Below are positions 10,089 to 31,008 of a DNA stretch of 64,000 bases, in pieces. Each line of letters starts with the position of its first letter. Positions within the stretch are counted from its first letter, which is position 1. Source of the DNA: Variovorax paradoxus (GTDB taxonomy: Bacteria > Pseudomonadota > Gammaproteobacteria > Burkholderiales > Burkholderiaceae_C); NCBI RefSeq assembly GCF_030815855.1, contig NZ_JAUSXG010000001.1, positions 3,162,001 through 3,226,000 of the forward strand, read 5' to 3'. A program made the position numbers and the translations under genes. Under the pieces are notes generated by a model that searched no databases, was not told the origin of the DNA, and was given only the letters and a program-made list of their open reading frames with translations.

Positions 10089-10103
10089 TGGCACGACCGT
10101 TGC
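10089..10103 (+). promoter_or_regulatory. sigma-54 (-24/-12) promoter upstream of rpoN paralogue
   Basis: TGGCACG at 10089-10095, four bases, then TTGC at 10100-10103. This matches the TGGCACG-N4-TTGC consensus exactly, with the required GG-N10-GC spacing. The expected transcription start is about 10115, leaving a ~30-base leader before ATG 10145. A sigma-54 gene behind a sigma-54 promoter implies positive autoregulation, or control by the main RpoN with an NtrC-type activator. The match is seen directly; its use is inferred. Confidence 0.8.
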
Positions 10104-10144
10104 GCTGCATTCCCGCCGCCAAGGATCGGAGGCTACGGAGAACC

Positions 10145-13529: not shown

Positions 13530-14090
13530 CTACCCGTCCGGCTGCCCGGGTTCTTTCGACGGATGCTCGATGCGGTCGAGCACCCGGTCCGGCGAAACGT
13601 TCTCGCGGAGTTCGTCGAGCTCCGGGTCGTGCGCAGCCGGAATTTCCATGCGCTTGGCGATCTCCGCGACCAGCGTCATGATCTTCGTGATCTCGTGCTC
13701 GCCCAGAAGACTGATCTGAAGATCGAGGTCGGCGCGCTGGTCCGCAAGCGCGGCCATGCGGTTCTGGCTGATCATCACGAAGGTCGAGATGAAGATGGCC
13801 TCGACCGACGCGACCATGGCCAGCACCACGAAGGTCGGATCGAAGGCGCGCACCATGGGCACCCACCCGAGGTTGACCACGATCCATCCGCCGTAGATCA
13901 AGAGGTGCAGGTACACGAACCTCATGCTGCCCGCGAAACGGGTAATGGCGTCGGCCATCCTGTCCTGCAGTCCGGTGGAAATCTTCTGCTGCTGGCGCCG
14001 TCTTACCAGCGCGGCAATGTTGCGGTCGACGACAGCCGCAACGGGCGGCTCGTCGCTCCGGCCGGGTGGGCGCGATTCAGCCGCCGCCAC
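13530..14090 (-). CDS. DUF1003 membrane protein
   Basis: 186 residues with two adjacent transmembrane helices (about 58-78, FVYLHLLIYGGWIVVNL, and 86-110, FVVLAMVASVEAIFISTFV). A conserved MISQNRMAALADQRADLDLQ segment and a long helical tail with ISLLGEHEITKI follow. This is the standard DUF1003 layout. It is an inner-membrane protein of unknown function. Its start (ATG 14090) overlaps the end of the methyltransferase gene upstream by 14 bases, so it is the last gene of the long minus-strand glycan operon, though it may be only a passenger. Confidence 0.88.
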   Translation of the reverse strand: MAAAESRPPGRSDEPPVAAVVDRNIAALVRRRQQQKISTGLQDRMADAITRFAGSMRFVYLHLLIYGGWIVVNLGWVPMVRAFDPTFVVLAMVASVEAIFISTFVMISQNRMAALADQRADLDLQISLLGEHEITKIMTLVAEIAKRMEIPAAHDPELDELRENVSPDRVLDRIEHPSKEPGQPDG

Positions 14091-14904
14091 GGATCACTCC
14101 CGTGGCCGACTCGTACTGCGAACCATAGAGGGCGCGCGCGCCCTGCGCCCGCGCGTCGGGCACGCACAGGTAGATCTCGTGGCCCGGCCGGGCTTCGATG
14201 CGCAGGCCGCTGGAGCGCAGCATGGCCTCCACGCCGGCATGGTTGGGCGCCCACCAGTTGGTCGGGTCGTTGGCCAGCCGGTGCTCGATGAAGGCCATTC
14301 GCGGCCAGCCGCTTTCGAGCAGCGGCATGCGGTTGTCGATGCTGCAGTCGGCCGTGTCGGTGTAGACGGAGTCTCCCGGCATGGTGAGCGTCTGGAACAT
14401 CATGATGCGGCGTGTCCGCGCAGCCAGCAGGTCGAGCGCGAGCAGCGGATAGCGCAGGTGATAGAAAACGCCCATGAACCAGACCAGATCGAAGCTTTCG
14501 TCGGAGCGCGCCAGGTCGTACACCTGCATTTCGCGAAACTCCACTTGCGACGCCATCCCCAGCTGTCCGGCGGCCCACCGGGCCTGCGCGAGATAGTGCG
14601 CATCGACATCGATGCCCAGCACCGAGGCGCCGCGCCGCGCGAGCTCGAAGCTGTAGAAGCCGGCGTTGCAGCCCACGTCGAGTACGCGCCATCCGCGGAG
14701 GTCTTCGGGAACGAAAGGCTTGATCTCCTGCCACTTGAAGTTCGGGAAGTCGCCGCCTAGAAAATGATGGGGCAGCGTCTGCACGCCGCCCGGCAGGTGC
14801 AGATTGTGGAACCACGGACCCAGCGCCTCGATCTGCTGGCGAACGGAACCCTGTTCCTGGTTGGCGGCGAGCGCGGCGGCCGACTTTGGGTTATGCATGG
14901 GCAT
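14077..14904 (-). CDS. SAM-dependent methyltransferase, Rta_06860-like family
   Basis: 275 residues. An N-terminal extension with GPWFHNLHLPGGVQT precedes a class I methyltransferase fold: motif I VLDVGCNAGFYSFE (about 73-86), the acidic LGIDVD and a FDLVWFMGVFYHLRYPL segment resembling CmoB/TIGR04290-type enzymes. From memory that family was named after a Ramlibacter locus in a similar cluster; this needs a profile search. It probably methylates a sugar or lipid-linked glycan intermediate. Start ATG 14904 or ATG 14898 (MHNPKS); AGGAGGAGG in front suits either. It lies 12 bp after the glycosyltransferase gene. Confidence 0.85.
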   Translation of the reverse strand: MPMHNPKSAAALAANQEQGSVRQQIEALGPWFHNLHLPGGVQTLPHHFLGGDFPNFKWQEIKPFVPEDLRGWRVLDVGCNAGFYSFELARRGASVLGIDVDAHYLAQARWAAGQLGMASQVEFREMQVYDLARSDESFDLVWFMGVFYHLRYPLLALDLLAARTRRIMMFQTLTMPGDSVYTDTADCSIDNRMPLLESGWPRMAFIEHRLANDPTNWWAPNHAGVEAMLRSSGLRIEARPGHEIYLCVPDARAQGARALYGSQYESATGVIRGGG

Positions 14905-14916
14905 GCCTCCTCCTGT

Positions 14917-16014
14917 TCATGCGGGTTCCCGCGCTTGCAGCAGCGTGCGCGCGTAGCCCTCGAGTTCTGCGGCCCGATGGGCTGCGGTGTGCTCCGACAG
15001 AATGCGCCGGCGCGCGCGCTCTCCCACGGCCCGGCGCTCTTCGTCCGGCAGGTCGCGCAAGAGCCGCAGCACCTCGCCGGGAGAATCGGCGAGAAAGATC
15101 TCTTCGCTCGGCACGAGCAGCGACTCGATGCCGTCCCAGCGGTCACTGATGATCGGGGTGCCGCATGCGGCCGCCTCGAAGATGCGCACGCTGGGCGACC
15201 AGCCGGCCTGGATCATGTCGGCGCGGGTCACGTTGAGCGTGAAGCGCTGCCGGTTGTAGAAGGCGCGGTGCTGCGCGGGCGGCAAATGCGCGATGTAGCG
15301 CACGTTCGGCGGCCACTCGATGCCCTGCGGATACTGCGCTCCGGCCACGTCGAAGCGGCCCTCGGGCCACTGCCGCGCGGGCGAAAGCAGCAGGGCTTCG
15401 AGCGTCGGCTGCCGGTCGTCGCTGTAGGTGCCCATGTAGCCGAGGTCGCAGTCCTGCGCCACGGGCTCGGGGTAATACAGCTCGGGATCGACCGAGCAGT
15501 AGAGCTTGCGCGCCGCGGGCGAGCCGAATTCGCGTTCCAGCCGGCCGAGCGTGGGGCCGCCGGTGAAGGACAGGTACATGTCGTAGCCCGCGATCTGCCG
15601 CGCCTCGAGGTAGCTGGTGCCCCCGCGTGCCAGCGCGGCCAGCGTCACCGGCGTATCGATGTCGTAGAAGGCCGTGCGGCCCGGCGCTTCGGACTGCACC
15701 CAGTCGCCGACCGCGACACCGTCGGGCACGAACGAGCCGACGATCACCAGGTCGGCCTCGCCGATCTGCGCCGCATGGTCGCGCTGCAGGCCGGGCAGGT
15801 CGGCATATAGCGCGGTGCGTCCGAAAGGAGGATGGGGCAGGTCGCGATGCTCTGCATACCAGGGCACGTCGCGTTCGAGAAACAGCACGTCATGCCCGCG
15901 CCGCACGAGTTCGCGCACGAGGCCGCGGTACGTGGTGGCGTGGCCGTTGCCCCACGACGAGGTGATCGAAAGCCCGAGGATGACGATCTTGAGCGGCGCA
16001 TCGTGGCTCTTCAT
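14917..16014 (-). CDS. CgeB-like glycosyltransferase (first of three tandem paralogues by coordinate)
   Basis: 365 residues. The N-terminal half resembles DUF3880/CgeB proteins (NGHATTYRGLVRELVRRGHDV). The C-terminal half is a Glyco_trans_1_2 domain with RIFEAAACGTPIISD and, later, EHTAAHRA. It should be a cytoplasmic GT-B enzyme transferring a sugar from a nucleotide donor; donor and acceptor are unknown. Start ATG 16014 overlaps the preceding stop by four bases (ATGA), so it is coupled to the next paralogue. Two further copies of the same architecture follow upstream, pointing to successive additions to one glycan. Confidence 0.88.
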   Translation of the reverse strand: MKSHDAPLKIVILGLSITSSWGNGHATTYRGLVRELVRRGHDVLFLERDVPWYAEHRDLPHPPFGRTALYADLPGLQRDHAAQIGEADLVIVGSFVPDGVAVGDWVQSEAPGRTAFYDIDTPVTLAALARGGTSYLEARQIAGYDMYLSFTGGPTLGRLEREFGSPAARKLYCSVDPELYYPEPVAQDCDLGYMGTYSDDRQPTLEALLLSPARQWPEGRFDVAGAQYPQGIEWPPNVRYIAHLPPAQHRAFYNRQRFTLNVTRADMIQAGWSPSVRIFEAAACGTPIISDRWDGIESLLVPSEEIFLADSPGEVLRLLRDLPDEERRAVGERARRRILSEHTAAHRAAELEGYARTLLQAREPA

Positions 16015-17120
16015 GCCAGCACCTCCAGCGCCTGCACGGCATCGCGGCCCTCGAGCAGCGCCTCCAGTTGCGCCGCGCGGTGCGCATAGGTGTGCTCCGC
16101 CAGCACGCGCCGGCAGGCTGCCTCGCCGATGCGGCGTGCCGCCACGGCATCGAGCTGGCGCACATGGGCTGCGACGCCATCGCCATCGGCTGCCACCAGC
16201 ACTTCCTTTCCGGGTTCGAGAAAGAGCTCGATGCCTTCCCACGCATCGGTGATCAGGCAGGCGGCCGAGCCGGCCGCCTCGAACACGCGAGTGGCCGGCG
16301 AGAAGCCGTAGCGCGCCATGCTGTCGCGGCTCACATTCAGCACGGCCATCGGTGTGCGGTTGAACGCGTTGTGGTCGGCGGTGTAGACATGGCCCACATT
16401 GCGGACGTTGGACGGCATGGGCTTGTCGTCCCAGCCGCTGCCGCCCAGCAGGAAGCGCCGCTCGGGCAACAGGCTCGCGGCGCGAAGAAAGAACTCCTCC
16501 ACGCGCGCCTCGCGGTCGGGCAAGCGGTTGCCGAGGAAGCCCAGGTCAGCCTCGAAGCGCGGATCGGGGCCGACCGGATGGTGCGTGGACGGATCGAGCG
16601 CGTTGTAGATCGGAATGCAGTCGCGCGCGCCGGCGCGGCGATAAGCCTGCACCACGGGATCGCCGCCGCCGTAGGTCAGCACCATGTCGTAGCGCGGCAC
16701 CAGCGCATGAAAAGGGTCCGAGGCATCGGCCTGCAGCCGGTCGAGCGTGGCGGGTGCATCGACATCCCAGAACACGACGCGCGTGCCCGGGCCTTGCAGA
16801 TCGAGCACGGCCTCTTCGAGCAGCGCATCGAACACGCCGACGCCGCTGGCCTTGACCACCAGGTCGGCGCCGCGCGCATGCTCGACCATGCGGCGCGCGT
16901 TGGCATCGCCCTCGCCGGGGTAGACGATGACCTCCGCCCAATCGGGGTCGTCCATGTCGCGGTGCTTTTGCCGGCCGAAGGCATCGGGCTCGTAGAAGCG
17001 CACGCGGTGGCCGCGCTCGTGCAGTGCGCGAACCATGCCGCGGTAATAGGTGGCGGCACCGTTCCAGTAGGCGGACACCAGGCTGGAGGCAAAAAAGGCG
17101 ATGTTCATTTTTTTCTTCAT
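16011..17120 (-). CDS. CgeB-like glycosyltransferase (second tandem paralogue)
   Basis: 369 residues from ATG 17120 (MKKKMNIAFFASSLVSAYWN), ten bases after a GGAG. It has NGAATYYRGMVRALHERGHRV near the N-terminus and RVFEAAGSAACLITDAWEG in the C-terminal nucleotide-binding half, ending with EHTYAHRAAQLEAL. The layout matches both flanking genes. The cysteine-containing AACLITD replaces the more usual ACGTPIISD, so donor recognition may differ. It overlaps both neighbours by four bases. The product is predicted to be a cytoplasmic GT-B sugar transferase of unknown specificity. Confidence 0.87.
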   Translation of the reverse strand: MKKKMNIAFFASSLVSAYWNGAATYYRGMVRALHERGHRVRFYEPDAFGRQKHRDMDDPDWAEVIVYPGEGDANARRMVEHARGADLVVKASGVGVFDALLEEAVLDLQGPGTRVVFWDVDAPATLDRLQADASDPFHALVPRYDMVLTYGGGDPVVQAYRRAGARDCIPIYNALDPSTHHPVGPDPRFEADLGFLGNRLPDREARVEEFFLRAASLLPERRFLLGGSGWDDKPMPSNVRNVGHVYTADHNAFNRTPMAVLNVSRDSMARYGFSPATRVFEAAGSAACLITDAWEGIELFLEPGKEVLVAADGDGVAAHVRQLDAVAARRIGEAACRRVLAEHTYAHRAAQLEALLEGRDAVQALEVLA

Positions 17121-18238
17121 GCAGGAATGCTCCGGAGATGAGAGGGCTCGCCTTCGAGTTCGGCGTGAATGGCGAGCAGTTCGTCGACGCGGTGGGCGCA
17201 GGTGTGACGCGCGAGCACGGTTTCCAGGCCCTGTTCGCGCAATGCGCGCGCCAGGTCCTTGTCGTGCAGCACGTCGCGCAGGTGGCGCCGCATGGCCGCG
17301 CCATCCGGTGCCACCAGGAAATCGCGGCCCGGCGTGAACAGGCTTTCGGCATCGTTCCACGGCGCGGAGACCAGCGGAATGCCGCAGGCCAGCGCCTCGA
17401 ACACGCGAATGGTCGGAATACCCGGCAGCGCCTCGACGTAGGGCCTGCGCGGCACGTGCACCGTGACGCGATGGCGTGCGAAGACGCGCGGTGCGCGGTA
17501 GTTGGGCAGCCAGCCGCCGAAATGGATTCGGGCCGCGCGAAGACGATCCAGTGCCCGGTCGGGGTAGCGCACACCATGCACCCGCGCCTTCAGGCGCAGA
17601 TCGCGCACGGGGCCGAGCAGGAATTCGTCGAGCTCGGCCTCGCGTTCGTCGTCGCCCCAGTTGCCGATCCAGACCAGGTCGCCCTCTTCCACCTCGTCCG
17701 GTATCGGATGAAAGTGCCGCGCGTCGGCGGCTTCATGCCAGGTCCAGGCGCGGCGCGCCCAGCCCTTCTTGCGGTACAGGTCGCGAATCACGTTGCCGAA
17801 GGCCAGCACGCCGTCGTAGTGCGAGAGGTCGTAGCCGGCCATGCTTTTCTCGTCGGTCACCGAGCGGTGGTGCGTGTCGTGAAAGAACAGCCGGTAGCGC
17901 CCCCCATCGCGCCGGTGGAGGCCGATGCGGCGCACCAGTGCGTGGTCGTTCCATTCGTGCACCAGCACCACGTCCGCGCCTTCCAGCGCCTCGTCGAGAT
18001 CGAGCGTGGCGGGGTCGCAGGCGGTGCTGTGAAGCTCCGGGTACACGCGCGCGAATTCTTCGAGCGGTGCCTTGCCGTGCTCGGCCTCGAGGTTGGTTCG
18101 GCTCCATGCGCCGAGCGGCTCATACACCGCAAGCTCATGGCCGCGCGCGAGCAGTTCGCTGCAGATGCCGCGCAGGAAATGAGCGTTGCCGTGGTTCCAG
18201 TCGGAAACGAGCGAATGGCAGAACATCACGAAGCGCAT
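17117..18238 (-). CDS. CgeB-like glycosyltransferase (third tandem paralogue)
   Basis: 373 residues beginning MRFVMFCHSLVSDWNHGNAHF. HGNAHFLRGICSELLARGHEL corresponds to the N-terminal motif of the other two paralogues, and RVFEALACGIPLVSAPWND to the sugar-nucleotide-binding half. Residues around 120-140 are His/Asp-rich (FFHDTHHRS). It is a predicted GT-B glycosyltransferase. Its stop overlaps the start of the next gene (ATGA), and its start lies 13 bases inside the end of the GT4 gene, so translation of the whole set is probably coupled. Confidence 0.87.
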   Translation of the reverse strand: MRFVMFCHSLVSDWNHGNAHFLRGICSELLARGHELAVYEPLGAWSRTNLEAEHGKAPLEEFARVYPELHSTACDPATLDLDEALEGADVVLVHEWNDHALVRRIGLHRRDGGRYRLFFHDTHHRSVTDEKSMAGYDLSHYDGVLAFGNVIRDLYRKKGWARRAWTWHEAADARHFHPIPDEVEEGDLVWIGNWGDDEREAELDEFLLGPVRDLRLKARVHGVRYPDRALDRLRAARIHFGGWLPNYRAPRVFARHRVTVHVPRRPYVEALPGIPTIRVFEALACGIPLVSAPWNDAESLFTPGRDFLVAPDGAAMRRHLRDVLHDKDLARALREQGLETVLARHTCAHRVDELLAIHAELEGEPSHLRSIPA

Positions 18239-19419
18239 GCGGGCTCCTTGGCTTTCCTTCGAGTCCGCCTGGCGCCCGCCGTGCGCGGCGCCGCGGGCGC
18301 GAGCAAACGGGCGTAGGCCGACAGGTAGGCATCCACCATGCGCGCCGGCGTGAAATGCCGCGCGCGCTCCCATGCCTTCAGCGCCATCTGCTGCCGCAAG
18401 GGCGGGTCGTCGATCAACCGCATCAGTGCGGCGTGCAAGGCCTCGTGGTCCTCGGGCTGCACATACAGCGCGGCATCGCCCCAGACCTCGCGCAGGCTGG
18501 GCACGTCGCCCAGCACCAGCGCGCACTGCGACAGCGCAGCCTCCAGCGCCGTGAGCCCGAACGGCTCGTAGCGCGCAGGCAAGGCATAGATCGATGCGCG
18601 CGAGAACTGCGCCGCCAGCGCATCGGGCGCCAGTTCGCCGAGCCACAGCACGCCGGGCGCTTGAATGCCGCACTCGCCGGCGCCGGGCGGTGAGGCAGAT
18701 CCGGCCACGCACACGGGCCAGAGCAACCGCGTGGCGACGGCCTGCAGCGCCGCCAGGTTCTTGGCCGCGTCCCACAGCCGCCCGGCCGAGAGAACGACCG
18801 GCTCCTTGTCGCCCGGAACGAACATCGCGGGGCTGCGGCCGTTGGGGAGCACGAGGCCTCCCTCGATGTAGCCGTAGTCGAGGGCCAGCGACGACAGCAT
18901 GGCTTCCGTCGGTGCGCCGACAACGTCGGCGCCGTCCAGCCCCTGCCGCACGGCCTTCCGGTAGGTGTCCCAACCCGCCGGCGCGAGCTGGCGATGCACC
19001 GCGCGCCACCAGGACGCCACGCACGAATGCGCGACCACGAGCTTCGGCGCGGCGAACGGCAGTGCGCCGAACGCGAACTGGTTCAGGTGAACGACGTCGG
19101 GCTGCACGGCGCGCTCGAGCCCCAGAAGCCAATCGCCTGCGCGCCGCACGTCGTCCCATGGCTCGTTCATCCACTCGAGGCGCCAATCGCTCTCGTGCAG
19201 TTGCAGACCAGGGAGCGATGCGGCCTGCGCGCGCTGCACCGGCGTGAGCGGCGCGCCCATGGTGGCCAGCGAGACACGCACGCCCCCCTCGCCGAGCCCG
19301 GCCGCAAGCTCCAGGGCGTGGCTCCAGACGCCGCCGACGGTGTCGGTTGTCATCAGCACGTGCTGCGGCACATGGGGTGGCGCGCGCTCTGGCGTGTGGG
19401 GCAGCGCGTCAGCGTTCAT
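18226..19419 (-). CDS. GT4-family glycosyltransferase
   Basis: 397 residues. An N-terminal half has TTDTVGGVWSHALELAAGL, the usual glycine-rich opening of GT4 enzymes. The C-terminal half has LSAGRLWDAAKNLAAL and YALPARYEPFGLTALEAALS, whose EPFGLTALEA is the GT4 catalytic and nucleotide-binding motif. It should transfer a sugar with retention of configuration in the cytoplasm. A basic tail (RRTRRKAKE) ends the protein and could touch the membrane. Start ATG 19419 overlaps the end of the oxidoreductase gene by 11 bases; ATG 19428 is an alternative. Confidence 0.9.
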   Translation of the reverse strand: MNADALPHTPERAPPHVPQHVLMTTDTVGGVWSHALELAAGLGEGGVRVSLATMGAPLTPVQRAQAASLPGLQLHESDWRLEWMNEPWDDVRRAGDWLLGLERAVQPDVVHLNQFAFGALPFAAPKLVVAHSCVASWWRAVHRQLAPAGWDTYRKAVRQGLDGADVVGAPTEAMLSSLALDYGYIEGGLVLPNGRSPAMFVPGDKEPVVLSAGRLWDAAKNLAALQAVATRLLWPVCVAGSASPPGAGECGIQAPGVLWLGELAPDALAAQFSRASIYALPARYEPFGLTALEAALSQCALVLGDVPSLREVWGDAALYVQPEDHEALHAALMRLIDDPPLRQQMALKAWERARHFTPARMVDAYLSAYARLLAPAAPRTAGARRTRRKAKEPACAS

Positions 19420-20452
19420 AGATCGCATCCAGTACCGCTGCAACTTCCACCAGGCGCTCGATCTCGGGATCGAAGGCGCCGCCGTTCGCGAGAGCGCGGG
19501 CCCAGTGCACGGCGGCGCGGCCACCCCAATCGTCGGGCGGCGAAGCGAGCGGCATTGCGCGCGTGCCGTCGAAGCGCTCAGCGACGAAATCGTAGAACGA
19601 GCCGCCCACGTTGCGAAACGAGGCGCCGCCGCGCGTGCCGTGAAAGCTGGCCTCGATGACGGCGTCCCGGCCGGCCGGCAGGTTCCAGGAGCACGCGAGC
19701 CGCACCACGCAGCCGCCCGCGAGGTCGATCTGCGCCACCGCATGGTCTTCGACCACGGCCGACGGCAGCGCGAGACGCCGGCCGCCCGCATGCAGGCGGC
19801 TCGATACCGCCTCGACGCGCGGAAAGCCCAGCGTCCACAGCGCCAGGTCGACCATGTGAATGCCGAGGTCGATCACGCAGCCGCCACCGGAAAGCACCGG
19901 ATCGCGAAACCACGGCTTGTCGGGTCCGTAGGCGTTGTGGAACACGAGGTCGATGGCATAGACGTCGCCGATGTCCCCGGCCGAGACGAGCTCGCGAATG
20001 CGCTGCATGCCTGCCGTGCGCCGGTACGACAGGTCGACGCCCAGCAACCGGTTGGCGCGCCGCGCCGCATCGATCACGCCACGGGTCTCCTCGGTGGTGC
20101 GCGCCAGCGGCTTCTGGCAGAACACCGCCATGCCGCGCGCAAGCGCCGCTTCGGCCTGCCGGGCATGAAGCGCGCTCGGCGTGGCGATCACGAGGCCGTC
20201 GAGCTCGTGTTCGAGCAGCGCATCGAGCGAATGTAAGCTGGCCGCGCCGGGCGCCAGCGCGCATGCGGCTTCGCGTGCGTCGTCATGCGCATCGGCGATG
20301 GCGGCAATCTCCGCCGCGCCATCCTTTGCAATGGCTTCCATGCGGTTCCTGCCGATCCATCCGACGCCGAGGAAGCCCAGCCGCGGTTTGCGAAGCGCGC
20401 TGGCCAGCGCAGCCCCGGCGCCGGACGCCGGGCCGGGGTCCAGCGCGTTCAT
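19409..20452 (-). CDS. Gfo/Idh/MocA-family oxidoreductase
   Basis: 347 residues with an N-terminal Rossmann fold (LGFLGVGWIGRNRM, about 25-38), an FCQKPLART segment in place of the usual EKP motif, and the C-terminal Gfo/Idh domain with GGGCVIDLGIHMVDLAL. Members oxidise or reduce sugars, inositols or sugar nucleotides using NAD(P). Given inositol-3-phosphate synthase in the same cluster, an inositol or a nucleotide-sugar substrate is plausible but not shown. Start ATG 20452; 14 bp separate it from the upstream dehydrogenase. Confidence 0.88.
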   Translation of the reverse strand: MNALDPGPASGAGAALASALRKPRLGFLGVGWIGRNRMEAIAKDGAAEIAAIADAHDDAREAACALAPGAASLHSLDALLEHELDGLVIATPSALHARQAEAALARGMAVFCQKPLARTTEETRGVIDAARRANRLLGVDLSYRRTAGMQRIRELVSAGDIGDVYAIDLVFHNAYGPDKPWFRDPVLSGGGCVIDLGIHMVDLALWTLGFPRVEAVSSRLHAGGRRLALPSAVVEDHAVAQIDLAGGCVVRLACSWNLPAGRDAVIEASFHGTRGGASFRNVGGSFYDFVAERFDGTRAMPLASPPDDWGGRAAVHWARALANGGAFDPEIERLVEVAAVLDAIYER

Positions 20453-20466
20453 GGCGTGCGCCGCCC

Positions 20467-21420
20467 TCACGTGGTCACCACCGCTTTCAGGAACCCGTCG
20501 GGCCGCGTGCGCGTGAGCTCGAGCGCCTCGCCCAGCCGGTCGAGCGGCAGGCGGTGGGTGAAGAGCGGTTCCGCGTCGAGCACGCCCGCCGCCATCATGT
20601 CGACGGCTTCGCGAATGCCCTGCACGTACATGCGCGGGTCGCGCTCGTGCGCGTTGATCACGTCGATGCCGCGCCAGTTCCACATCTGCATGTTGACCTG
20701 GCGCGTTCCGTCCTGGTGGTAGCCCGCGACGACGAGGCGGCCGCGCTCGCCGGTGAGCTCGCCCGCAAGGTCGAGCGGCCACTGCAGGCCGACCGCCTCG
20801 ATGGTGCGCTCGCACATCTGCTCGCCGGTGAGGCGCTTGACCTCGTCGAGGATGCGCCAGTGGTCGTCCATCGCGAGGGTGTGCTCGGCGCCGGCTTCGC
20901 GCGCCACTTCGAGTGCGAAGGGCCGGCGCGAGATGGCGATGACCCGTGCACCCGCCCGCGCGGCGAGCCGCGTGAGGATGGCACCCAGAAACCCGATGCC
21001 GACGATGGCCACGGTCTGGCCGGCCTGGATGTCGCTGCGCCGGAAGATGTTGACCGCGCAGCCCAGCGGCTCGCCGGGCATGGCCACATCGGCGAGCGAG
21101 GCCGGCAACGGCACCACCGCGCCCGCATCGGCCACGTCGTACTCGGCATGCGCGCGGTAAGTGAGCGCGGCCACGCGGTCGCCGATGGCCAGGCCTTCGA
21201 CGCCCTCGCCCACCGCGGCCACGCGGCCCCAGCCTTCGTGCCCCGGCGCGCCCGCGGGCTGCGGGTATTCGAACCACGAGCGGCCCTCCCACAGCGGCAG
21301 GCTGGAGGCGCAGACGCCCGAGCCCTCCAGCTTCAGCAGCACCTGCCCGGCGGCCGGCTCGGGCGTTTCCACCCGCCGCACGACCGCCTGTCCCGGCGAA
21401 GCAATGACGCTTGCGAACAT
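20467..21420 (-). CDS. zinc-type medium-chain alcohol/polyol dehydrogenase
   Basis: 317 residues of the MDR superfamily. Catalytic zinc ligand candidates are Cys37 (GVCASS) and His61-Glu62 (GHEGWG). The coenzyme-binding segment is VAIVGIGFLGAIL. The protein is shorter than typical zinc dehydrogenases and lacks the four-cysteine structural zinc loop, as in some sorbitol/inositol-type dehydrogenases. It probably acts on a sugar alcohol, inositol or sugar nucleotide made by the cluster. Start ATG 21420 follows GGGAGGTGAGC closely. It sits two bases from the end of the epimerase gene. Confidence 0.87.
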   Translation of the reverse strand: MFASVIASPGQAVVRRVETPEPAAGQVLLKLEGSGVCASSLPLWEGRSWFEYPQPAGAPGHEGWGRVAAVGEGVEGLAIGDRVAALTYRAHAEYDVADAGAVVPLPASLADVAMPGEPLGCAVNIFRRSDIQAGQTVAIVGIGFLGAILTRLAARAGARVIAISRRPFALEVAREAGAEHTLAMDDHWRILDEVKRLTGEQMCERTIEAVGLQWPLDLAGELTGERGRLVVAGYHQDGTRQVNMQMWNWRGIDVINAHERDPRMYVQGIREAVDMMAAGVLDAEPLFTHRLPLDRLGEALELTRTRPDGFLKAVVTT

Positions 21421-21422
21421 GC

Positions 21423-22549
21423 TCACCTCCCGGCCGCTGCCAGCACGACGCCGCGCTGTGCGGCCTTGCGGACGGAGGCCGGCTGGGCGCGCATCTCGCG
21501 CAGCCACTGGTGCAGGCGCTCGATGCCGTGCCGCGCATCGACGGCCGGCCGCCAGCCGGTGGCCGCCTCGAAGCGGCGCGTGTCCGAGACGTAGTAACGC
21601 TGGTCGCCGGTGCGCCAGTCTTCGTACGTGGTCTCGGGGCGCTTGCCGTCGAGCGCTTCGATCTGGTCGAGCAGGTCGAGCAGGCTGATCACGTTGCGCG
21701 GGCCGCCGCCGATGTTGAAGGCGCCGCCCGCGAGCTTGCCGATATGGCGCTGCGCCAGCACGAAGGCGTCGACAAGGTCGTCGACGAACAGGATGTCGCG
21801 CACCTGCTTGCCGTCGCCGAACAGGGTAATCGGCTCGCGGTCGAGCGCGCGCAACAGGAAGTGCGCCACCCAGCCCTGGTCTTCGGTGCCGAACTGGCGC
21901 TGGCCGTAGATGCAGCTCATGCGGAAGACGACGGTCTTCAGGCCGTAGCTGCGCGCATAGTCGTGCACGTACTGGTCGGCCGTTCCCTTGGAGCAGCCGT
22001 AGGGGCTGTGGAAGTCGAGCGGCCGCGCTTCCGAGATGCCGTGGCTCGCAATGTCCGGCGCCACCGGTTCGTAGCGCTGGCCCTCAAGCTTGAGCTCGAC
22101 GTCTTCGAGGCCGCCATAGACCTTGTTGGTCGAGGTCATCAGCACCGACGGCGGCACCGGCTGCGCGCGGGCCGCCTCGAGCACGTTGAGCGTGCCCAGT
22201 GCGTTGACCGAAAAATCCTCGCGCGGATCGACCAGGCTGGTGGTGACCGCCACCTGCGCCGCGAAGTGAAAGACATGGTCGGCTCGTGCCACCGCGCGCT
22301 CCACCGCGGCGGCATCGCGAACGTCCGCCACCATCACGTCGAGCCGGGTCGGGTGGTTCTGCCGAAGCCACTCGAGATTGCGCTCCACGCCGGGCCGCGA
22401 GAGGTTGTCGAACACCAGCACGCACCGCCCGTCGGACAGCAGCCGGTGGGCGAGGTTGGCTCCGACGAAGCCCGCGCCACCCGTGATGAGCGTGACCCGA
22501 TCCTTGCCGTTGAGCGCGCGCCGGGGAGTGAGTACGGGGTCCCGGCTGT

Positions 22550-22553
<4 letters not shown>
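21423..22553 (-). CDS. NAD-dependent sugar-nucleotide epimerase, CDP-paratose 2-epimerase-like
   Basis: 376 residues, extended SDR family. GGAGFVGANL (about 25-34) binds NAD. MTSTNKVYGG and HSPYGCSKGTADQY supply the Ser/Thr and the YxxxK catalytic pair. MSCIYGQRQFGTEDQGWVAHF closely resembles CDP-tyvelose/CDP-paratose 2-epimerases (RfbE). It should invert a hydroxyl on a nucleotide-linked sugar. No CDP-glucose pathway genes are present, so the true substrate may be another nucleotide sugar. It overlaps the upstream epimerase gene by four bases. Confidence 0.88.
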
Positions 22554-23668
<1,115 letters not shown>

Positions 23669-23965
23669 GAAACCCCTTTTTGTTTGAGTCGCCGGCGAAG
23701 CGTCGAGAAAAGGAAAATCGTTTTCCAACGCCCTGGCGAAGCTCGAAATTCGTCGAAAAATTGCCGCCTTCATGTGCGAAGGTACTTACCTGTGTGTAGG
23801 CGCGCTGCCCTGTTACGCCACTGCTGAGTTGGTGATGTGCATCGCGGGTGTTTCGGGCGCGCGCAGGGCCTCAAACGAGCGTAGATTGCCAAGCAACAAA
23901 GCTTTGGCTTCGGTTCATCACGCCCGCCGCGCGCTCGTGCGGCGGCACTCGCAAAAGGTTTTCAC
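23669..23965. promoter_or_regulatory. divergent intergenic region of the glycan cluster
   Basis: 297 bp without a convincing gene, between the first gene of the minus-strand operon and inositol-3-phosphate synthase. It must carry promoters for both directions. It is locally less GC-rich near 23690-23770. I see an imperfect dyad CCAAGC...GCTTTGG around 23888-23906 but no consensus promoter I would defend. Confidence 0.5.
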
Positions 23966-25117
23966 ATGAGCAAGGTACGTGTCGCGATCGTCGGTGTGGG
24001 CAACTGCGCCTCCTCGCTGGTGCAGGGTGTCCACTTCTACGGCAACACCCAGGGCGCCGACTTCATTCCCGGTCTGATGCATCTCGACCTGGCGGGCTAC
24101 CGCCCGTCGGACATCGAGTTCAGCGCGGCCTTCGACGTGCATGCGCGCAAGGTCGGCCGCGACCTGGGAGAAGCCATCTACGAGGCACCCAACAACACCA
24201 TCCGCTTCGCCGATGTGCCCAAGCTCGGCGTACCCGTGCACCGCGGACCCACGCACGACGGCATCGGCACCTACCTGAAGGACGTGGTGCCACTTGCACC
24301 CGGCAGGGCGCAGAACGTGGCGAAGATCCTCAAGGAGACGAAGACCGACGTGGTGGTCTCTTACCTGCCGGTGGGCTCCGAGAAGGCCACCCAGTGGTAC
24401 GCAGAGCAGGTGCTGGAGGCCGGCTGCGCCTTCGTCAACTGCGTGCCGGTGTTCATCGCCTCGCGGCCGGAATGGGAGCGGCGCTTTGCCGAGCGCGGCC
24501 TGCCGATCATCGGCGACGACATCAAGTCGCAGGTGGGCGCCACCATCGTGCATCGCATCCTGACCGACCTGTTCAGGAAGCGCGGCGTTCGGCTGGACCG
24601 CACCTACCAACTCAACTTCGGCGGCAACACCGACTTCCTCAACATGCTCGAACGCGAGCGCCTGCTCTCGAAGAAGATCTCGAAGACGCAGGCCGTCACG
24701 AGCCAGCTCGGGCACCCCATGAAGGGTTCCGACGTGCACGTGGGGCCGAGCGACCACGTACCGTGGCTTGCCGATCGCAAGTGGTGCTACATCCGCATGG
24801 AAGGCACCACCTTCGGCAACGTGCCGCTCCAGTGCGAGGTGAAGCTCGAGGTGTGGGATTCGCCGAACTCCGCCGGCGTGGTGATCGACGCGGTGCGCTG
24901 CGCCAAGCTCGCGCTCGACCGCGGCGTGGGCGGCGCGGTGCTGGCGCCTTCGAGCTACTTCATGAAGTCGCCGCCGCAGCAGTTCACCGACGACGAGGCC
25001 CGCGAACTGGTGGAGGCGTTCATTCGCGGCGATGCCGAGGCCGCGGCGCCGCCCGAGCGCAAAGCCCATGCGCACGAACCGGCCCCGCGCCATGCGAAGA
25101 GGAGCAAGCTCGCATGA
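23966..25117 (+). CDS. inositol-3-phosphate synthase (myo-inositol-1-phosphate synthase)
   Basis: 383 residues. [12 protein letters not shown] (about 10-21) is the NAD-binding motif. [38 protein letters not shown] and LNFGGNTDF are characteristic of the prokaryotic family. It isomerises glucose-6-phosphate to inositol-3-phosphate in the cytoplasm. The last ~35 residues are low-complexity (Ala, Pro, His, Lys) and outside the catalytic core. The enzyme is uncommon in this bacterial group. No inositol monophosphatase or phosphatidylinositol-type synthase is in the window, so the fate of the product is open. Its stop overlaps the glycosidase start by four bases. Confidence 0.93.
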
Positions 25118-26070
25118 TCGAAGCCGTCAAGTTCTGGAACGAACCCAACAACAAGTCGCACTGGGACCTCGAACTCGACCCCGACTGGTCGGCCTATGCG
25201 CAGATGGTCAAGCTGGCCTCGAGCGCGGTGCGCGCGGAGAACAGCACGCTCACGCAGGTGCTCGGCGGCATCTCGCCCATCGACGCGCACTTCATGGCGG
25301 GCTTGCGCGACCGCGGCGTGCTCGACGGGCTCGACGCGGTGGCGGTGCACGGCTTTCCGCTCGACTGGAACAACTGGCAGATCCACGAATGGCCGCGCCG
25401 CATCGCCGAGATCGAGGCGGTGACGCACCTGCCGGTGTGGGTGACCGAGGTCGGCGTCTCGACCTTCGGCGCCGAAGAGGTGCAGGAGTTCGGCTTGCGC
25501 CGCACGGCCGAGCTGCTGATCGGCCGCGTGCCGCGCATCTTCTGGTATTCGCTCTACGACCTGCCCCAGGCCTGGCCCGCGACCACGCGGCACCGCGAGG
25601 CCGAAGGGTCGAGCTACTACCGGCACTTTCACATGGGGCTGCTGCGTGAAGACGGCACGCCCAAGATCGCGTGCGAGCAATTCGCCAGCTACACGCCCGC
25701 GATGGGCATCTGCCAGTGGTTCCACTTCGAAGACCACCGCCTCGACGAGGCGGTGCGCTGGCTCGAACGGCTGGGCGTGCGCCATCTGCGCACGGGGCTC
25801 AGCTGGGCCGACAGCTTCCGCCCGAACGCCGAGCGATGGTTCGACCGCCAGATGCGTGCGCTGGAAGATTTCGACGTCACCCTCACCTTCTGCTTCACGC
25901 CCGAACACCGCGGCATTGCGCCGCACCACACCAGCCCGCCGCAGCAACCCGAGGAATTCGCCGAGTTCTGCGCGGGCATGGTGCGCCGCTATGCGTCGAA
26001 CCGGGCGTGCACCGTCTTGCCTTTCGCGGCCGCCGGAACCACGGCGCCGTCGCGCATGCCCGCGAGCTGA
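25114..26070 (+). CDS. clan GH-A-like glycosidase with apparently circularly permuted barrel
   Basis: 318 residues. FWNEPN places the acid/base Glu at residue 10 and WVTEVGVS the nucleophile at Glu112. These are beta-4 and beta-7 features of a retaining TIM-barrel glycosidase (GH39/GH5-like). In such enzymes ~130-150 residues normally precede the NEP motif. Here the missing first half seems to follow: residues ~205-300 read [29 protein letters not shown] and [13 protein letters not shown], which look like beta-1 to alpha-3. No signal peptide is visible, so it is probably cytoplasmic. The last 82 bases overlap the convergent UDP-xylose synthase gene, and the C-terminal ~25 residues are probably not part of the fold. 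Confidence 0.75.
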
Positions 26071-27041
26071 GCCGGCGACAGTTCACCGGCCGAGAGCAGG
26101 CCATCGAAATACTCGATGGTCTTGCGCAGGCCCTCCTCGAGCTGCACGCTCGGCTGCCAGCCGAACATCTTCTTTGCGAGCCGGATGTCGGGCCGGCGCT
26201 GCATCGGGTCGTCCGAGGGCAGCGGCGCAAACGTCAGCTTCGACGACGAGCCCGTCAGCCGGATGACCTGCTGCGCAAGCTCGCGCACGGTGAACTCGAC
26301 CGGGTTGCCGATGTTCACCGGCCCCGGGCCGCCGGCCGAAGCGTCCATGAAGCGGTTGAGCCCTTCCACCAGGTCGTCGACGAAGCAGAAGCTGCGCGTC
26401 TGCAGGCCCTCGCCGTAGATGGTGATCGGGTCACCGCGCAGCGCCTGCACGATGAAGTTCGACACCACGCGTCCGTCCCGCGGATGCATGCGCGGCCCGT
26501 AGGTATTGAAGATGCGCGCCACGCGAATGTCGACGCGGTGCTGGCGGTGGTAGTCGAAGAACAGCGTCTCGGCGCAGCGCTTGCCTTCGTCATAGCAGCT
26601 GCGAACGCCGATGGGGTTGACCTTGCCCCAATAGCTCTCCGGCTGCGGATGCACGTCGGGGTCGCCGTACACCTCGCTGGTCGACGCCTGGAGAATGCGC
26701 GCGCGCACGCGCTTCGCAAGGCCCAGCATGTTGATGGCGCCGTGAACGCTGGTCTTGGTGGTCTGCACCGGGTCGTGCTGGTAGTGCACGGGCGACGCCG
26801 GGCATGCGAGGTTGTAGATCTGGTCCACCTCCACGTACAGCGGAAAGGTCACGTCATGGCGCATCAGCTCGAAATGCGGATTGCCGAGCAGGTGCTCCAC
26901 GTTGCGCCGTGTTCCGGTAAAGAAGTTGTCGGCGCACAGCACGTCGTGCCCCTGCGCCAACAGGCGCTCGCAGAGATGACTGCCCAGGAAGCCCGCGCCT
27001 CCGGTCACGAGGATGCGGCGCTGGGTGTTGTAGATACGCAT
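25989..27041 (-). CDS. UDP-glucuronate decarboxylase (UDP-xylose synthase)
   Basis: 350 residues. [14 protein letters not shown] binds [13 protein letters not shown] and [12 protein letters not shown] give the Ser and the Tyr-x3-Lys. [16 protein letters not shown] and [10 protein letters not shown] are diagnostic for UXS. It converts UDP-glucuronate to UDP-xylose and CO2. The enzyme is about 30 residues longer than usual; the extra C-terminal segment (after FDGLLSA) is what overlaps the glycosidase gene. The UDP-glucose dehydrogenase gene lies 28 bp upstream, so the pair would deliver UDP-xylose from UDP-glucose. Confidence 0.93.
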
Positions 27042-27069
27042 GATCGAAGCTCCTGTTTTCGGTATTTGT

Positions 27070-28455
27070 TCAGCGCCCGATGGCCAGGTAGTCGAAGCCC
27101 TGCGAGCGGATCTCCGGGTCGTACAGATTGCGTCCGTCGAAGATCAGCGGTTGCTTCAGCGCGGTCTTCAACGCGCTGAAACTGGGGCTCTTGAACGCCT
27201 TCCAGTCCGTGAGGATGACCAGCGCATCGGCGTCTTCCACGGCCTGCATCGGGTTCTCGACGTAGCGCAAGCGGGCCACCAGCTCGGGCATGCCATCGAG
27301 GTCGCCCGCAAGAACCTTGCGCGCTTCGGCAATGGCGACCGGGTCGTGCGCGACCACCTCGGCACCGCGCACCAGCAGCGCCTTGATCACGAGGCGGCTC
27401 GGCGCTTCGCGCATGTCGTCGGTGTCGGGCTTGAAGGCCAGGCCCCAGATGCCGAAGCGGCGGCCGCGCAGGTCTTCGCCGAAGCGGCGGACGATCTTTT
27501 CGATCAGCACCAGCTTCTGCGCATCGTTCACGGCGCGCACGGCCTCCAGCACCTGCAGCCGCTGGCCATGCGTGGCGGCGGTGTGCACCAGCGCCTGCAC
27601 GTCCTTGGGAAAGCAGCTGCCGCCGTAGCCCAGGCCGGCATAGAGAAAGCTGTAGCCGATGCGCGGATCGGAGCCGATGCCCCGGCGCACCTGCTCGATG
27701 TCGACACCGACCTTTTCCGCAAGGTTCGCGAGCTCGTTCATGAAGCTGATGCGCGTGGCGAGCATGGCATTGGCCGCGTACTTGGTGAACTCGGCCGCCT
27801 TCACGTCCATGTGGATCATGCGGTCGCGCTGCCGGTTGAACGGCGCATACAGGCGGGTCATCACGTCGCGCGCCTGCTGCCCGGCCTCGCCGGGTTCGGT
27901 GCCGACCACGATGCGGTCGGGCCGCATGAAGTCGTCGACGGCCGCGCCTTCCTTGAGGAACTCGGGGTTGGACACGATGGCGACCGGAAGCCCCTGCAGG
28001 CCGCTGCCGGCCGCGTGGTCGCCTTTGCTGCGCCGCTCCGAAAGCTCTTCCTCGATGGCCGCGCGCAGCTTGCCGGCGGTGCCCACGGGCACGGTCGATT
28101 TTTCGACCACCACCTTGAAGCCCTGCATGTGGCGGCCGATGCTGCGTCCGGCGGCGAGCACGTATTGCAGATCGGCGCTGCCGTCTTCACCGGGCGGCGT
28201 TCCGGCCGCGATGAAGATCAGGTCGCCGTGGTGCACGGCCCGTGCGACATCCGTCGTGAAGTGCAACCGGCCGGTGCGCACGTTGCGCTCGATGAGCTGC
28301 GGCAGCCCCTCCTCGTGGATCGGTACGCCCCCCGATTGCAGGATGTCGACCTTGCGTTCGTCGACGTCGAAGCAGACAACTTCGTTTCCGATCTCCGCCA
28401 GGCAACTGCCCGTGACGAGACCTACATAGCCGGTACCGAGGACTGAGATTTTCAT
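27070..28455 (-). CDS. UDP-glucose 6-dehydrogenase
   Basis: 461 residues. [17 protein letters not shown] is the N-terminal NAD motif, [10 protein letters not shown] holds the catalytic Cys, and [18 protein letters not shown] the C-terminal UDP-binding domain. It oxidises UDP-glucose twice to UDP-glucuronate, the substrate of the UXS encoded just downstream. Start ATG 28455 has only a weak ribosome site. The region in front (about 28490-28545) is notably AT-richer than its surroundings, as expected for a promoter. Confidence 0.94.
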
Positions 28456-28689
28456 GGGGGGAGCGAGTGGATGCCGATTTGCGTTGTTGATGTAAGCGTG
28501 TTGAAAAAACCTAGCAGAAATTTTTCCGGGAAGGAACAGGACAGCACCGTGGCGCGCCGTTGACTGCATTGATGAGCGCAAGTAGCGTGGCGCCACGGAC
28601 TCGCGCCACAGCCGTCGGGCATGCCGGTTGCCGTGATGCTGTTGCCGCGGCCTTGCACGCGGCGGTCCGCCCCTGCCGACAATGAACGA

Positions 28690-29223
28690 ATGACAACAAC
28701 CTGGACACCCAACTTCAGCTGGATCACGCACGCGCTCGCGGTGGGCGGCAGTTTTCCGTCGGAGCGCGCCGAAGAGCTTGCGTCGGCGCACGGCATCCGG
28801 TCGGTGGTCGACCTGCGCAATGAAGCAAAGGACGACGAGGCATTGCTGCACCGGCACGGCATCACGCTGCTGCACTTGCCGACCGAGGACATGTGCGGCG
28901 TCGATGCCGCGCAGCTCGATGAAGGCGTGGCCTTTGCCGATGCCGCGCTCGACCGCGGCGAACGCGTGCTCATTCACTGCGAGCACGGCATCGGCCGCTC
29001 GGCGACGCTCGCCCTTTGCGTGATGGTGTTTCGCGGCGAGCGTCCGCTCGACGCACTCGAACAGATGAAAAGCCGCAGGGCGTTGGTGTCGCCCTCCCCC
29101 GCGCAGTTCGCCTGCTGGAGCGAATGGCTGGCGCGCCACCGCGAACTGCAGGGCACGCCGTGGGAGGTGCCCGACTTCGATGCGTTCCAGGCCATTGCCT
29201 ACCGCCACCTGCGGACCGGCTGA
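28690..29223 (+). CDS. dual-specificity-type protein phosphatase
   Basis: 177 residues with the Cys-x5-Arg active site [10 protein letters not shown] (Cys97, Arg103) and an upstream [12 protein letters not shown] containing the likely general-acid loop region. The size and fold are those of small cysteine phosphatases that act on phosphoproteins, phosphoinositides or other phospho-metabolites. Start ATG 28690 (MTTTW) has no clear ribosome site; an in-frame ATG at 28621 is a less likely alternative. Its TGA shares one base with the ATG of the next gene (TGATG), so the two are translationally coupled. It is divergent from UDP-glucose dehydrogenase across 234 bp. Confidence 0.85.
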
Positions 29224-31008
29224 TGCTCGTCTACGGCGACGCCACGCGGCGGGAGCCTGCCGCACAAATGCTGGCGCGGCTGCGCAATCTGCTCTCGGCC
29301 GCGCAGGCCTCGCCGGCGGGCATCGGCAGGCACAGCCTGCTCGTGGACGCGCTGATCGAAGCGGGCGAACTGGTGCAGGGCCTTGCCGACGCGCGCTTCC
29401 ACGCCGCCGGCCAGCGCGACGTGCGCTCGCCGGAGGTGGACGCCGCCATGGCGCTCGCAATGGCAGTGGCCAGGCTGTGCGCGAGGTCGTGGGAAACATC
29501 GTTCTCCCCCGAGCCGCCCGCGCTCGAAAGCGCCCGCCGGCAAGGCGCCCCGGAAGACGCGCTTGCCGCGTGCGAAGCCCTGCTGTCCCCGTTCGAGGAA
29601 GTCGACGTGAAGCAGCCCGAGGGATACGCCTTCTACGCGCTGTACCCCGACGGCCATTTCGTTGCTGCGAAGCGGCTGCAATGCAGGCCCTGGCGCGTGA
29701 TCGGCCTGCGCAGCATCGGCACCAGCCTCTCCGCCATGGTGGCGGTGGCACTCGGCGATGCCGCGCCCCTGACGCTGAGGCCCGTCGGCCATCCTTTCGA
29801 CCGCCGCCTCGCGCTGGGGAATGCCTCGCTGGCGATGCCGGCCGCGCACCACGCCATCGTCGATGAAGGGCCGGGCCTCTCGGGCTCGTCGATGGCGGGC
29901 GTGATCCGGCAGTTGCGCAATGAAGGCGTGCCGGCGGACCACATCCATCTGTTTCCCGGCCACGCGAACGGCCCCGGTGTCCGATCGGGCCCGGAGGTGC
30001 GAGCGCTGTGGGCACAGGCCGCGACGCACGTGGTCGGATTCGACGAGCTGATCTTGCGCGCGGAGAATCCCGCGCACCGGCTGCAGAGCTGGGTCGAAGC
30101 GCTGATCGGCCCGCTTCATGCGCCGCTCTCGGAGGTCACCGCCGGGGAATGGCGCCACGCGCACGATGGCACGCCTGACGAACTGCCCCCGGCCCATCCC
30201 TGGCAGGAGCGCCGCAAGTTTCTGGCAAGCGGCGGCGACGGGTGCTGGCTCGTGAAGTTCATCGGCCTCGGCCACGCCGCGCGGCAGCGCTTCGGCTGTG
30301 CCAAGGCGCTGGCGGAGGCCGGCTTCTCCCCTGCCGTTGCCGGCCTGTGCCACGGCTTCATGGTGGAGCGCTGGCACGGCGACATGGCGCCGCTCTCGCC
30401 TGCGCGCCTCGGCAATGCCGCGCTCCGCGCACGGCTGATCGAAGGCCTAGCGGACTACATCGCCTTTCGCGCGCGAAGCTTTCCCGCGCCCGGCGAAAGC
30501 GGCGCCCTCGCTGCAGGCCTTGTGCGAGATGGGCCGTCACAACAGCATCGAAGCCCTCGGCAGCGGCTTTGCGGACGCATGGAAGCGCCACCGCAGCGAG
30601 GCGGATCGGCTGCAGGGCCGGGTACGGCGCGTGAAAACGGACAACCGCATGCACGCATGGGAATGGCTGGCGAATGGCGAGCGCCTCTTGAAGACCGATG
30701 CCGTGGACCACCACGCAGGCCACGACCTGATCGGCTGCCAGGACCCGGCCTGGGACGTTGTCGGCGCCGAGGCGGAGCTCGGGCTGCACGCCGATGAATC
30801 GCATGCGCTGGTCGACGGTCTTTCGCGGCGCGGCTGCTTCATCGATGGGGAACTGCTGGGCTTCTATGCGCCGGCCTATCTCGCATTCCAGCTCGGCCAC
30901 TTCCGGCTAGCGGCGCAGGACGCCCGTTCACCTACCGAGAGAAGGCGCCTCGAAGCGCACGGCGAACGCTACGCGCGCGCGCTCCGCCGCCATCTTGCGA
31001 ACAGCTGA
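29223..31008 (+). pseudogene. large unrecognised protein with phosphoribosyltransferase-like motif, frameshifted as read
   Basis: Two overlapping frames make one ~594-residue protein. The first (ATG 29223) runs to about codon 427, where removing one C from CCC 30505-30507 continues it into the frame containing MCEMGRHNSIEAL and ending at 31008. A central [18 protein letters not shown] resembles the PRPP-binding loop of type I phosphoribosyltransferases, preceded by [12 protein letters not shown]. The C-terminal part has WEWLANGERLLKTDAVDHH and LIGCQDPAWDVVGAEAEL, recalling aminoglycoside kinase-like folds, but I cannot name a family. It is coupled to the phosphatase, suggesting a joint pathway. 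The frameshift may be a sequencing error. Confidence 0.7.

Follow-up and report, generated by a model that had tools for sequence, protein, structure and literature searches.

What does a bacterium make with a dozen or so genes that place an inositol-3-phosphate synthase (MIPS) and a glycosidase-like protein (GH) beside four glycosyltransferases and a methyltransferase (MT)? The question is raised by positions 13530-28455 of a 64,000-nucleotide stretch of the Variovorax paradoxus genome (contig NZ_JAUSXG010000001.1, positions 3,162,001 to 3,226,000; hereafter the window), which an earlier interpretation made without database searches (the sequence-only reading) had regarded as an uncharacterised cluster for a glycoconjugate linked to inositol and xylose. 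Our analysis partly supported that interpretation, in that the cluster is real and its kind was sensibly guessed. We found that the cluster is a conserved system, that MT and GH occur in exactly the same genomes of a Pseudomonadota sample, and that GH has a clan GH-A-like barrel in circularly permuted form. As a tentative reading, which falls a little short of being probable, we propose that predicted cytosolic enzymes make a short O-methylated inositol/xylose oligosaccharide and that the permuted glycosidase-like enzyme trims or recycles this product.

Layout and conservation of the cluster

Two transcription units lie back to back at 13530-28455. The minus-strand unit runs in the order SDR2, SDR1, MDR, Gfo/Idh, GT4, three CgeB-like glycosyltransferases and MT, most neighbours overlapping by 4 bp, and the plus-strand unit consists of MIPS followed by the 318-aa GH. 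Beyond GH come a predicted UDP-xylose synthase (UXS) and a UDP-glucose dehydrogenase (UGD) on the minus strand and, back on the plus strand, a phosphatase of the DSP type (28621-29223) with a companion gene that recurs in other loci (starting at 29223); the cluster probably reaches rightward to these two. Pfam and TIGR matches confirmed that all the genes named in the sequence-only reading are present, with the 4- and 14-bp overlaps that it described. The genome, a single contig of 5.95 Mb, holds one MIPS gene and one TIGR04290 gene over cut-off.

13530..14090, minus: DUF1003 protein (PF06210, 95.7 bits; 14-bp overlap with MT)
14077..14904, minus: MT, TIGR04290 (Rta_06860) S-adenosylmethionine-dependent methyltransferase, last gene of the core operon (352.9 bits, cut-off 300)
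14917..16014, minus: CgA, CgeB-like glycosyltransferase (PF13524, 140.3 bits)
16011..17120, minus: CgB, CgeB-like glycosyltransferase (PF13524, 135.3 bits)
17117..18226, minus: CgC, CgeB-like glycosyltransferase (PF13524, 135.1 bits)
18226..19428, minus: GT4-type glycosyltransferase (PF00534/PF13439)
19409..20452, minus: GFO, Gfo/Idh/MocA oxidoreductase (PF22725/PF01408)
20467..21426, minus: MDR, zinc-type dehydrogenase (PF00107/PF08240)
21423..22553, minus: SDR1, nucleoside diphosphate (NDP)-sugar 2-epimerase-like, CDP-tyvelose 2-epimerase subfamily (306 bits to 9rl0)
22550..23668, minus: SDR2, extended SDR, NDP-sugar epimerase/dehydratase-like (PF01370/PF16363)
23669..23965, no strand: divergent intergenic region between the two units, with no good sigma-54 site
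23966..25117, plus: MIPS, inositol-3-phosphate synthase of the Mycobacterium tuberculosis Ino1 type (1gr0, 486.9 bits; PF01658)
25114..26070, plus: GH, circularly permuted clan GH-A-like predicted glycosidase (swapped segments, structure model, tree)
25989..27041, minus: UXS, UDP-glucuronate decarboxylase-type SDR, predicted UDP-xylose synthase (PF16363/PF01370)
27070..28455, minus: UGD, UDP-glucose 6-dehydrogenase (PF03721, PF00984, PF03720)
28621..29223, plus: DSP-type phosphatase that may dephosphorylate a pathway intermediate (PF00782, 52.8 bits)
29223..31008, plus: companion gene (no Pfam match; two frames, break near 30466-30521)

The 4-bp overlaps are those of CgA/CgB, CgB/CgC, MDR/SDR1, SDR1/SDR2 and MIPS/GH, and the convergent GH and UXS genes share 82 bp. 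The three CgeB-like proteins are 28-36% identical in pairwise comparisons. SDR1 scores 306 bits with 9rl0 and 275 bits with 1orr against 140 bits for the next extended-SDR family, a clear preference by which it would belong to the CDP-tyvelose 2-epimerases. The solved chains closest to MDR are ketose reductase/sorbitol dehydrogenases; GFO reaches 98 bits with the IolG model, far under its cut-off of 355; and SDRs at the UXS position of other clusters are annotated as UDP-glucuronic acid decarboxylases.

Relatives of MT were collected by a profile scan with one genome per species, and the best 80 of 203 loci were kept. MT loci come from Burkholderiales, Lysobacter, Xanthomonas, Geobacteraceae, Cytophagales, Armatimonadota, Acidobacteriota, Gemmatimonadota, Planctomycetota, Ignavibacteriota, a cyanobacterium and others, with both Pseudomonadota and Bacteroidota included, and MT was also found in 130 plasmid records, 64 of them from Sinorhizobium. 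The eight genes preceding MT (two SDRs, MDR, Gfo/Idh, GT4 and three CgeB-like glycosyltransferases) were counted in those 65 of the 80 loci whose sequence extends 8 kb or more upstream of MT, the 15 shorter ones being left out. All eight stand on the MT strand in the window order in 46 of the 65 loci, at least seven in 49 and at least three in 63, with no out-of-order gene on that strand; inverted genes do not enter this tally because only upstream genes on the MT strand were considered, and in several Rufibacter loci the stretch ends within the cluster. The three CgeB-like genes adjoin one another in 71/80 loci. The genes, whose joint occurrence across Comamonadaceae the sequence-only reading had proposed to check, are conserved as a single cluster, but this cluster spans many phyla and is not a speciality of that family. 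The claim of the same reading that inositol synthesis is rare in this group held, and the trait is patchy there: among 200 genomes drawn from the family of the window genome, two have TIGR04290 over cut-off and the same two have MIPS, and the sole other genome of the same genus in this draw (G122) has neither. Ramlibacter ginsenosidimutans (G097, the genome of locus L048) has two TIGR04290 genes over cut-off, with its single MIPS on the contig of the second. The Bradyrhizobium cluster contains in addition a fourth CgeB-like glycosyltransferase, a nucleotidyltransferase, a phosphopentomutase and a B12-radical SAM protein of family TIGR04295.

Co-occurrence was analysed in 398 Pseudomonadota genomes, with thresholds of E<=1e-40 for MT, E<=1e-20 for GH and E<=1e-40 for MIPS. 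MT and GH were each found in 14 genomes, and these are the identical 14, with none discordant (Fisher p 4e-26, uncorrected for kinship). The GH match runs end to end, in the permuted form, in 12 of the 14; in the other two (G500 and G550) it covers only residues 5 to 187/188, within frames of 784 and 703 aa that are fusion-like. MIPS occurs in 33 of the 398 genomes, comprising 12/12 with the permuted GH, 0/2 with the canonical form and 21/384 others, which have neither MT nor GH. In the 11 permuted-form genomes besides that of the window, 5-68 bp separate MT from GH, and MIPS lies 0.6-2.5 kb from MT; in the window MT and MIPS are about 9 kb apart. Inositol synthesis is thus linked to the permuted GH type in this sample.

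The circularly permuted glycosidase and its canonical sister

Comparison with relatives of canonical order, together with a structure model, showed that GH carries barrel strands 4-8 first and strands 1-3 at its C-terminus. The protein begins at strand 4 with the motif WNEPN, containing Glu10, and its nucleophile motif WVTEVG contains Glu112; both glutamates are invariant in 22/22 aligned permuted proteins. The predicted structure, which is a prediction only, has eight strands (predicted TM score, pTM, 0.82), and the only Pfam match is a sub-threshold one to PF11790 (19.6 bits, cut-off 21). GH has the clan GH-A arrangement of an acid/base Glu in an NEP motif and a nucleophile Glu about 100 residues on; its strand order departs from that of the clan, which starts with strand 1 at the N-terminus and ends with strand 8. 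The known enzymes closest to it would be the clan GH-A retaining glycosidases, the nearest being PslG (GH39-like) and GH1, and GH is predicted from its sequence to be a cytosolic glycosidase that retains both catalytic glutamates. The sequence-only reading had called this glycosidase unusual, and the permutation goes beyond what that reader could see.

Two genes near the cluster are split in this assembly, which makes local sequence errors plausible and could have suggested that the swapped order is an artefact of assembly or gene calling. Such an artefact is already refuted: the same order is present in 23 sequences of several phyla, which form one side of a fully supported branch of the tree, and the 120 listed database relatives align with the window GH in one piece over 92-100% of its length.

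In fold searches, the permuted model matched mostly non-GH-A barrels (GH20, GH84, epimerases, aldolases), and the 50 Foldseek rows listed include one GH5 enzyme (7r2d), at rank 21 with a TM score of 0.35. When a relative of canonical order was searched as a control, its best structural neighbours were clan GH-A enzymes, and we attribute the generic-barrel matches of the permuted model to the sequential nature of the aligners.

In 26/29 canonical copies in the loci examined, the glycosidase is fused N-terminally to SDR1 in one reading frame. Carriers of the fusion include Bacteroidota, Xanthomonas, Geomesophilobacter, an armatimonad and others, and in X. sacchari it is annotated as a single 632-aa protein. 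Two further fused canonical copies (L108 and L117) were labelled as permuted since one motif failed, and stand outside the 29 and the tree. Because the fusion couples the glycosidase to sugar-nucleotide supply, the glycosidase is, on this sequence evidence, likely an enzyme of the pathway and not a passenger. The Ignavibacteria locus L114 carries both a fused canonical copy (476-2590), in which Ala substitutes for the nucleophile Glu, and an intact permuted copy.

Inositol synthase and phosphatases

MIPS aligns with 1gr0 over residues 2-355 at 486.9 bits and matches PF01658 at 123 bits. Mycothiol biosynthesis shares with the cluster an Ino1-type synthase and a GT4 distantly similar to MshA. 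It differs in that MIPS reaches 527.9 bits with the mycothiol equivalog TIGR03450, under the cut-off of 638, that the GT4 reaches 39.1 bits with MshA (TIGR03449, cut-off 462.5 bits), and that no ligase is present among the cluster genes. The view that this is not a mycothiol locus is therefore upheld.

The synthase was searched in 42 carrier genomes drawn from the 80 loci, of which 16 have an Ino1-type enzyme (>430 bits), 11 only a weak eukaryote-type match and 15 none. Inositol, which the sequence-only reading had treated as a feature of the cluster, is predicted for this locus from the synthase gene but is not general. Its restriction to one cluster type is likely, given the 26 carriers without an Ino1-type enzyme, and we distinguish two likely types: one with inositol synthesis and a free permuted glycosidase, the other with a fused canonical glycosidase and no linked synthase. 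Rufibacter and its relatives (L070, L073, L079, L087) have a permuted GH but no Ino1-type MIPS within the stretch. In three of the 80 loci, all from Rufibacter (L058, L069, L088), a eukaryote-type synthase lies about 4 kb from MT; that of L058 matches PF07994 at 350 bits and the L069 and L088 copies are 92-97% identical to it, and inositol synthesis seems to have been recruited independently in these loci.

The loci around MIPS were fetched for the 16 carrier genomes with strong synthase matches. Two of these, from a Gaiellaceae member and a deltaproteobacterial metagenome-assembled genome, show no cluster gene beside the synthase in the fetched stretch. In the 14 Burkholderiales loci around MIPS, GH adjoins MIPS in 14/14 and UXS is near in 13/14. 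A phosphatase, of the DSP type in six and of the histidine type in seven, lies within 4 kb of the synthase in 13/14 close loci; past GH, there is either the companion gene, in seven loci of which six also have the DSP phosphatase, or, in seven, a histidine phosphatase (the type of Ramlibacter and Bradyrhizobium), never both in the stretch. The reported lack of an inositol monophosphatase is thus correct for the cluster itself, but phosphatases do accompany the synthase and two PF00459 genes are present elsewhere in the genome. A GT9-like gene accompanies the histidine phosphatase, directly in L128, L129, L130 and L134 and, as seen through antisense frames at the corresponding place, in L131, L132 and L135; such genes stand near the permuted GH or the histidine phosphatase in Ramlibacter, Rufibacter and Bradyrhizobium (including L070 and L116), with a PF01075 match of 24.5 bits in L070 and none in L130.

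These data also bear on whether MIPS is a passenger, working for a different pathway and only accompanying the glycan cluster. The absence of the Ino1 type from most carriers and the presence of MIPS in 21/398 genomes that lack both MT and GH would be expected of a passenger. The presence of MIPS in 12/12 permuted-GH genomes, within 2.5 kb of MT in 11 of them, and the different type of synthase near MT in the three Rufibacter loci argue against it, and we consider a passenger role unlikely.

Proposed pathway, its neighbourhood and its meaning

Under the oligosaccharide reading, UGD and UXS would supply UDP-xylose, which is the established chemistry of these two families. MIPS would make inositol 3-phosphate, from which the nearby phosphatase, DSP-type here and histidine-type in Ramlibacter and Bradyrhizobium, may free inositol as a primer or unit in MIPS-type clusters. 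SDR1, SDR2 and the MDR and Gfo/Idh pair would provide more epimerised or oxidised sugar building blocks, and GT4 and the three CgeB-like transferases would attach sugars serially. MT may cap the chain, a role suggested by its usual position after the transferases or beside the glycosidase, and GH would cut the finished glycan into defined primers. Hydropathy analysis of the 13 pathway proteins revealed no signal-like N-terminus and no clear membrane span, which fits the soluble small glycan suggested earlier. Given the UDP-xylose supply, SDRs, oxidoreductases, four transferases, methyltransferase and glycosidase, all lacking membrane signals, a cytosolic methylated oligosaccharide would be the simplest product.

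A functional analogy is provided by the mycobacterial methylmannose polysaccharide, whose cluster (PMC9883506) combines a glycosyltransferase, a methyltransferase and a dedicated primer-making glycosidase (MmpH). The likeness to this methylated glycan is one of working principle; the sugars differ and no homology of the enzymes is claimed. By this analogy, where a synthesis cluster has a cytosolic glycosidase of its own, trimming or the making of primers is the role that would explain it best. A second comparison is the TIGR04290/TIGR04295 neighbourhood, which shares the same methyltransferase family over cut-off and, in Bradyrhizobium, TIGR04295 itself (708 bits). The name of this model, B12_rSAM_oligo, suggests that its curators envisaged an oligosaccharide; the model descriptions carry no function. 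In the open-licence literature no publication was found for Rta_06860, TIGR04290 or TIGR04295, for "rhizo-twelve", a label for TIGR04295, or for the presumed locus tags SMb20238 and SMb20240-20244. Among the papers listed, none was seen to concern this cluster or circular permutation within clan GH-A, the nearest case being the permuted domains of a GH13 enzyme.

Several observations weigh against the proposed pathway. The product and the substrates of all enzymes are deduced from the genes, and the hydropathy profiles would also be compatible with lipid-linked acceptors made elsewhere. As the permuted model matched generic barrels only, glycosidase activity rests on the canonical relatives and the two residues, and the nucleophile Glu is replaced by Ala in 2/29 canonical copies (L096, L114). 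With 26/42 carriers lacking an Ino1-type synthase, inositol may be peripheral. The p-values overstate independence because the carrier genomes are related (9 genera, 6 families), and some matches read through TGA (GH in G362 and G518, MIPS in G362 and G370). The unit is not rigid either: MDR, SDR1 and SDR2 are on the opposite strand in L074, none of the eight is on the MT strand in L081, Sinorhizobium meliloti has Gfo/Idh and MDR in inverted orientation, and neither of these two was seen in the stretch read for Bradyrhizobium L116.

Alternatively, the cluster could make a surface polysaccharide, or decorate lipopolysaccharide, protein or lipid, drawing on an exporter and an initiating transferase from other parts of the genome. 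GT4, the CgeB-like transferases and the NDP-sugar SDRs are typical of such glycans, and the S. meliloti cluster lies on pSymB, a replicon rich in exopolysaccharide genes. The interval 14077-28455 is, however, filled by 13 of the genes listed above, leaving no room for an exporter, a flippase (Wzx), a polymerase (Wzy) or an initiating transferase, so that, as the sequence-only reading had noted, it does not have the make-up of a Wzx/Wzy O-antigen or capsule locus (this applies to the locus; no genome-wide search was made), and a cytosolic glycosidase would be odd for such a product. Flank open reading frames were also clustered and the 45 largest clusters inspected. A conserved flank exporter was rejected as a candidate, the flank families, stress and regulator genes among them, being mostly lineage-bound and none of the 45 resembling a polysaccharide exporter. 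Eight loci (L044, L045, L047, L048, L074, L083, L114, L115) share an ABC-transporter ATPase family; it is read as part of an importer because permease and binding-protein genes adjoin it in Ramlibacter. A surface glycan thus appears somewhat unlikely, though it deserves some weight. A NUDIX hydrolase family is present in 27 Bacteroidota loci, among them L077 (10896-11456), where it comes directly after MT.

A role of the product as a stress solute or protectant during drying, osmotic stress or starvation, with the locus inside a stress island, would be compatible with the cytosolic oligosaccharide. Genes for RpoN2, a sigma-54-type regulator and a DUF1003 protein are nearby here and in four Variovorax-type loci, three of which also have DUF4142; S. 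meliloti L115 has nutrient-deprivation, BON, DUF3618 and DUF4142 genes within about 12 kb after the cluster, a hint of general stress control; and treZ is close by in Bradyrhizobium. These neighbours vary among loci, though, and the intergenic region between the two units shows no good sigma-54 site. A weighted scan of 23669-23965 with the sigma-54 consensus gave weak matches only (10 to 10.5 of 15), and sigma-54 control of the cluster was dropped, a better match nearby (13 of 15) falling inside SDR2. We regard a stress function as rather improbable. The DUF1003 protein, which alone among those encoded here has a strongly hydrophobic segment, is probably a neighbour outside the pathway, its gene adjoining the cluster in only some loci.

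Further left, rpoN2 (10100-11581, plus) is the second of the genome's two rpoN copies, and a near-perfect sigma-54-type site, TGGCACGACCGTTGCG at 10089 (14.5 of 15), lies just upstream of its likely start; a weaker one (13.5) at 12816 precedes the DUF4142 gene. The NtrC-type response regulator gene (8012-9461, minus) is split near 9012 by a sequencing error or decay, and is a single frame in the close relative L050. Genes for RpoN2 and the response regulator are also near the cluster in L037, L038, L041 and L050. As a constant partner, the regulator was discarded: ten loci match, but in L104, L105, L113 and L117 the match is to the AAA domain only, at 42-46%. On the right, the companion gene, in two pieces in the window, has one match in each of nine other loci with a 582-aa S. 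meliloti query (the query taken from the window included an out-of-frame tail). It is unsplit in L115, L122-L127, L133 and the Ignavibacteria locus L114, and in the Gemmatimonadales locus L083 from residue 111. One motif of the companion protein is presumably similar to a phosphoribosyl pyrophosphate (PRPP) loop. For its relative in L122 there was no Pfam match, and the best PDB match had an E-value no lower than 0.61.

What is new here is the breadth of the cluster, the strict pairing of MT and GH, the circular permutation, the SDR fusion and the link, in Pseudomonadota, of MIPS to the permuted type. In a bolder and improbable version of the pathway, an inositol-primed, xylose-bearing, methyl-capped cytosolic oligosaccharide would copy itself by cutting and extension, with the permuted GH making the primers. 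If this were true, the permutation would put the acid/base Glu at the extreme N-terminus of the operon partner of the inositol synthase, clan GH-A would gain its first natural strand-4 permutant, and a self-recycled methyl oligosaccharide would be known for the first time beyond the mycobacteria. The pathway of about a dozen genes, for whose product we found no publication, occurs in rhizobia, Variovorax, Ramlibacter, Xanthomonas, Pontibacter and uncultured soil phyla. The joint occurrence of its genes and the fusion open it to direct testing, and the permuted glycosidase and its fused canonical sister form a natural pair for studying the tolerance of the barrel to recutting.

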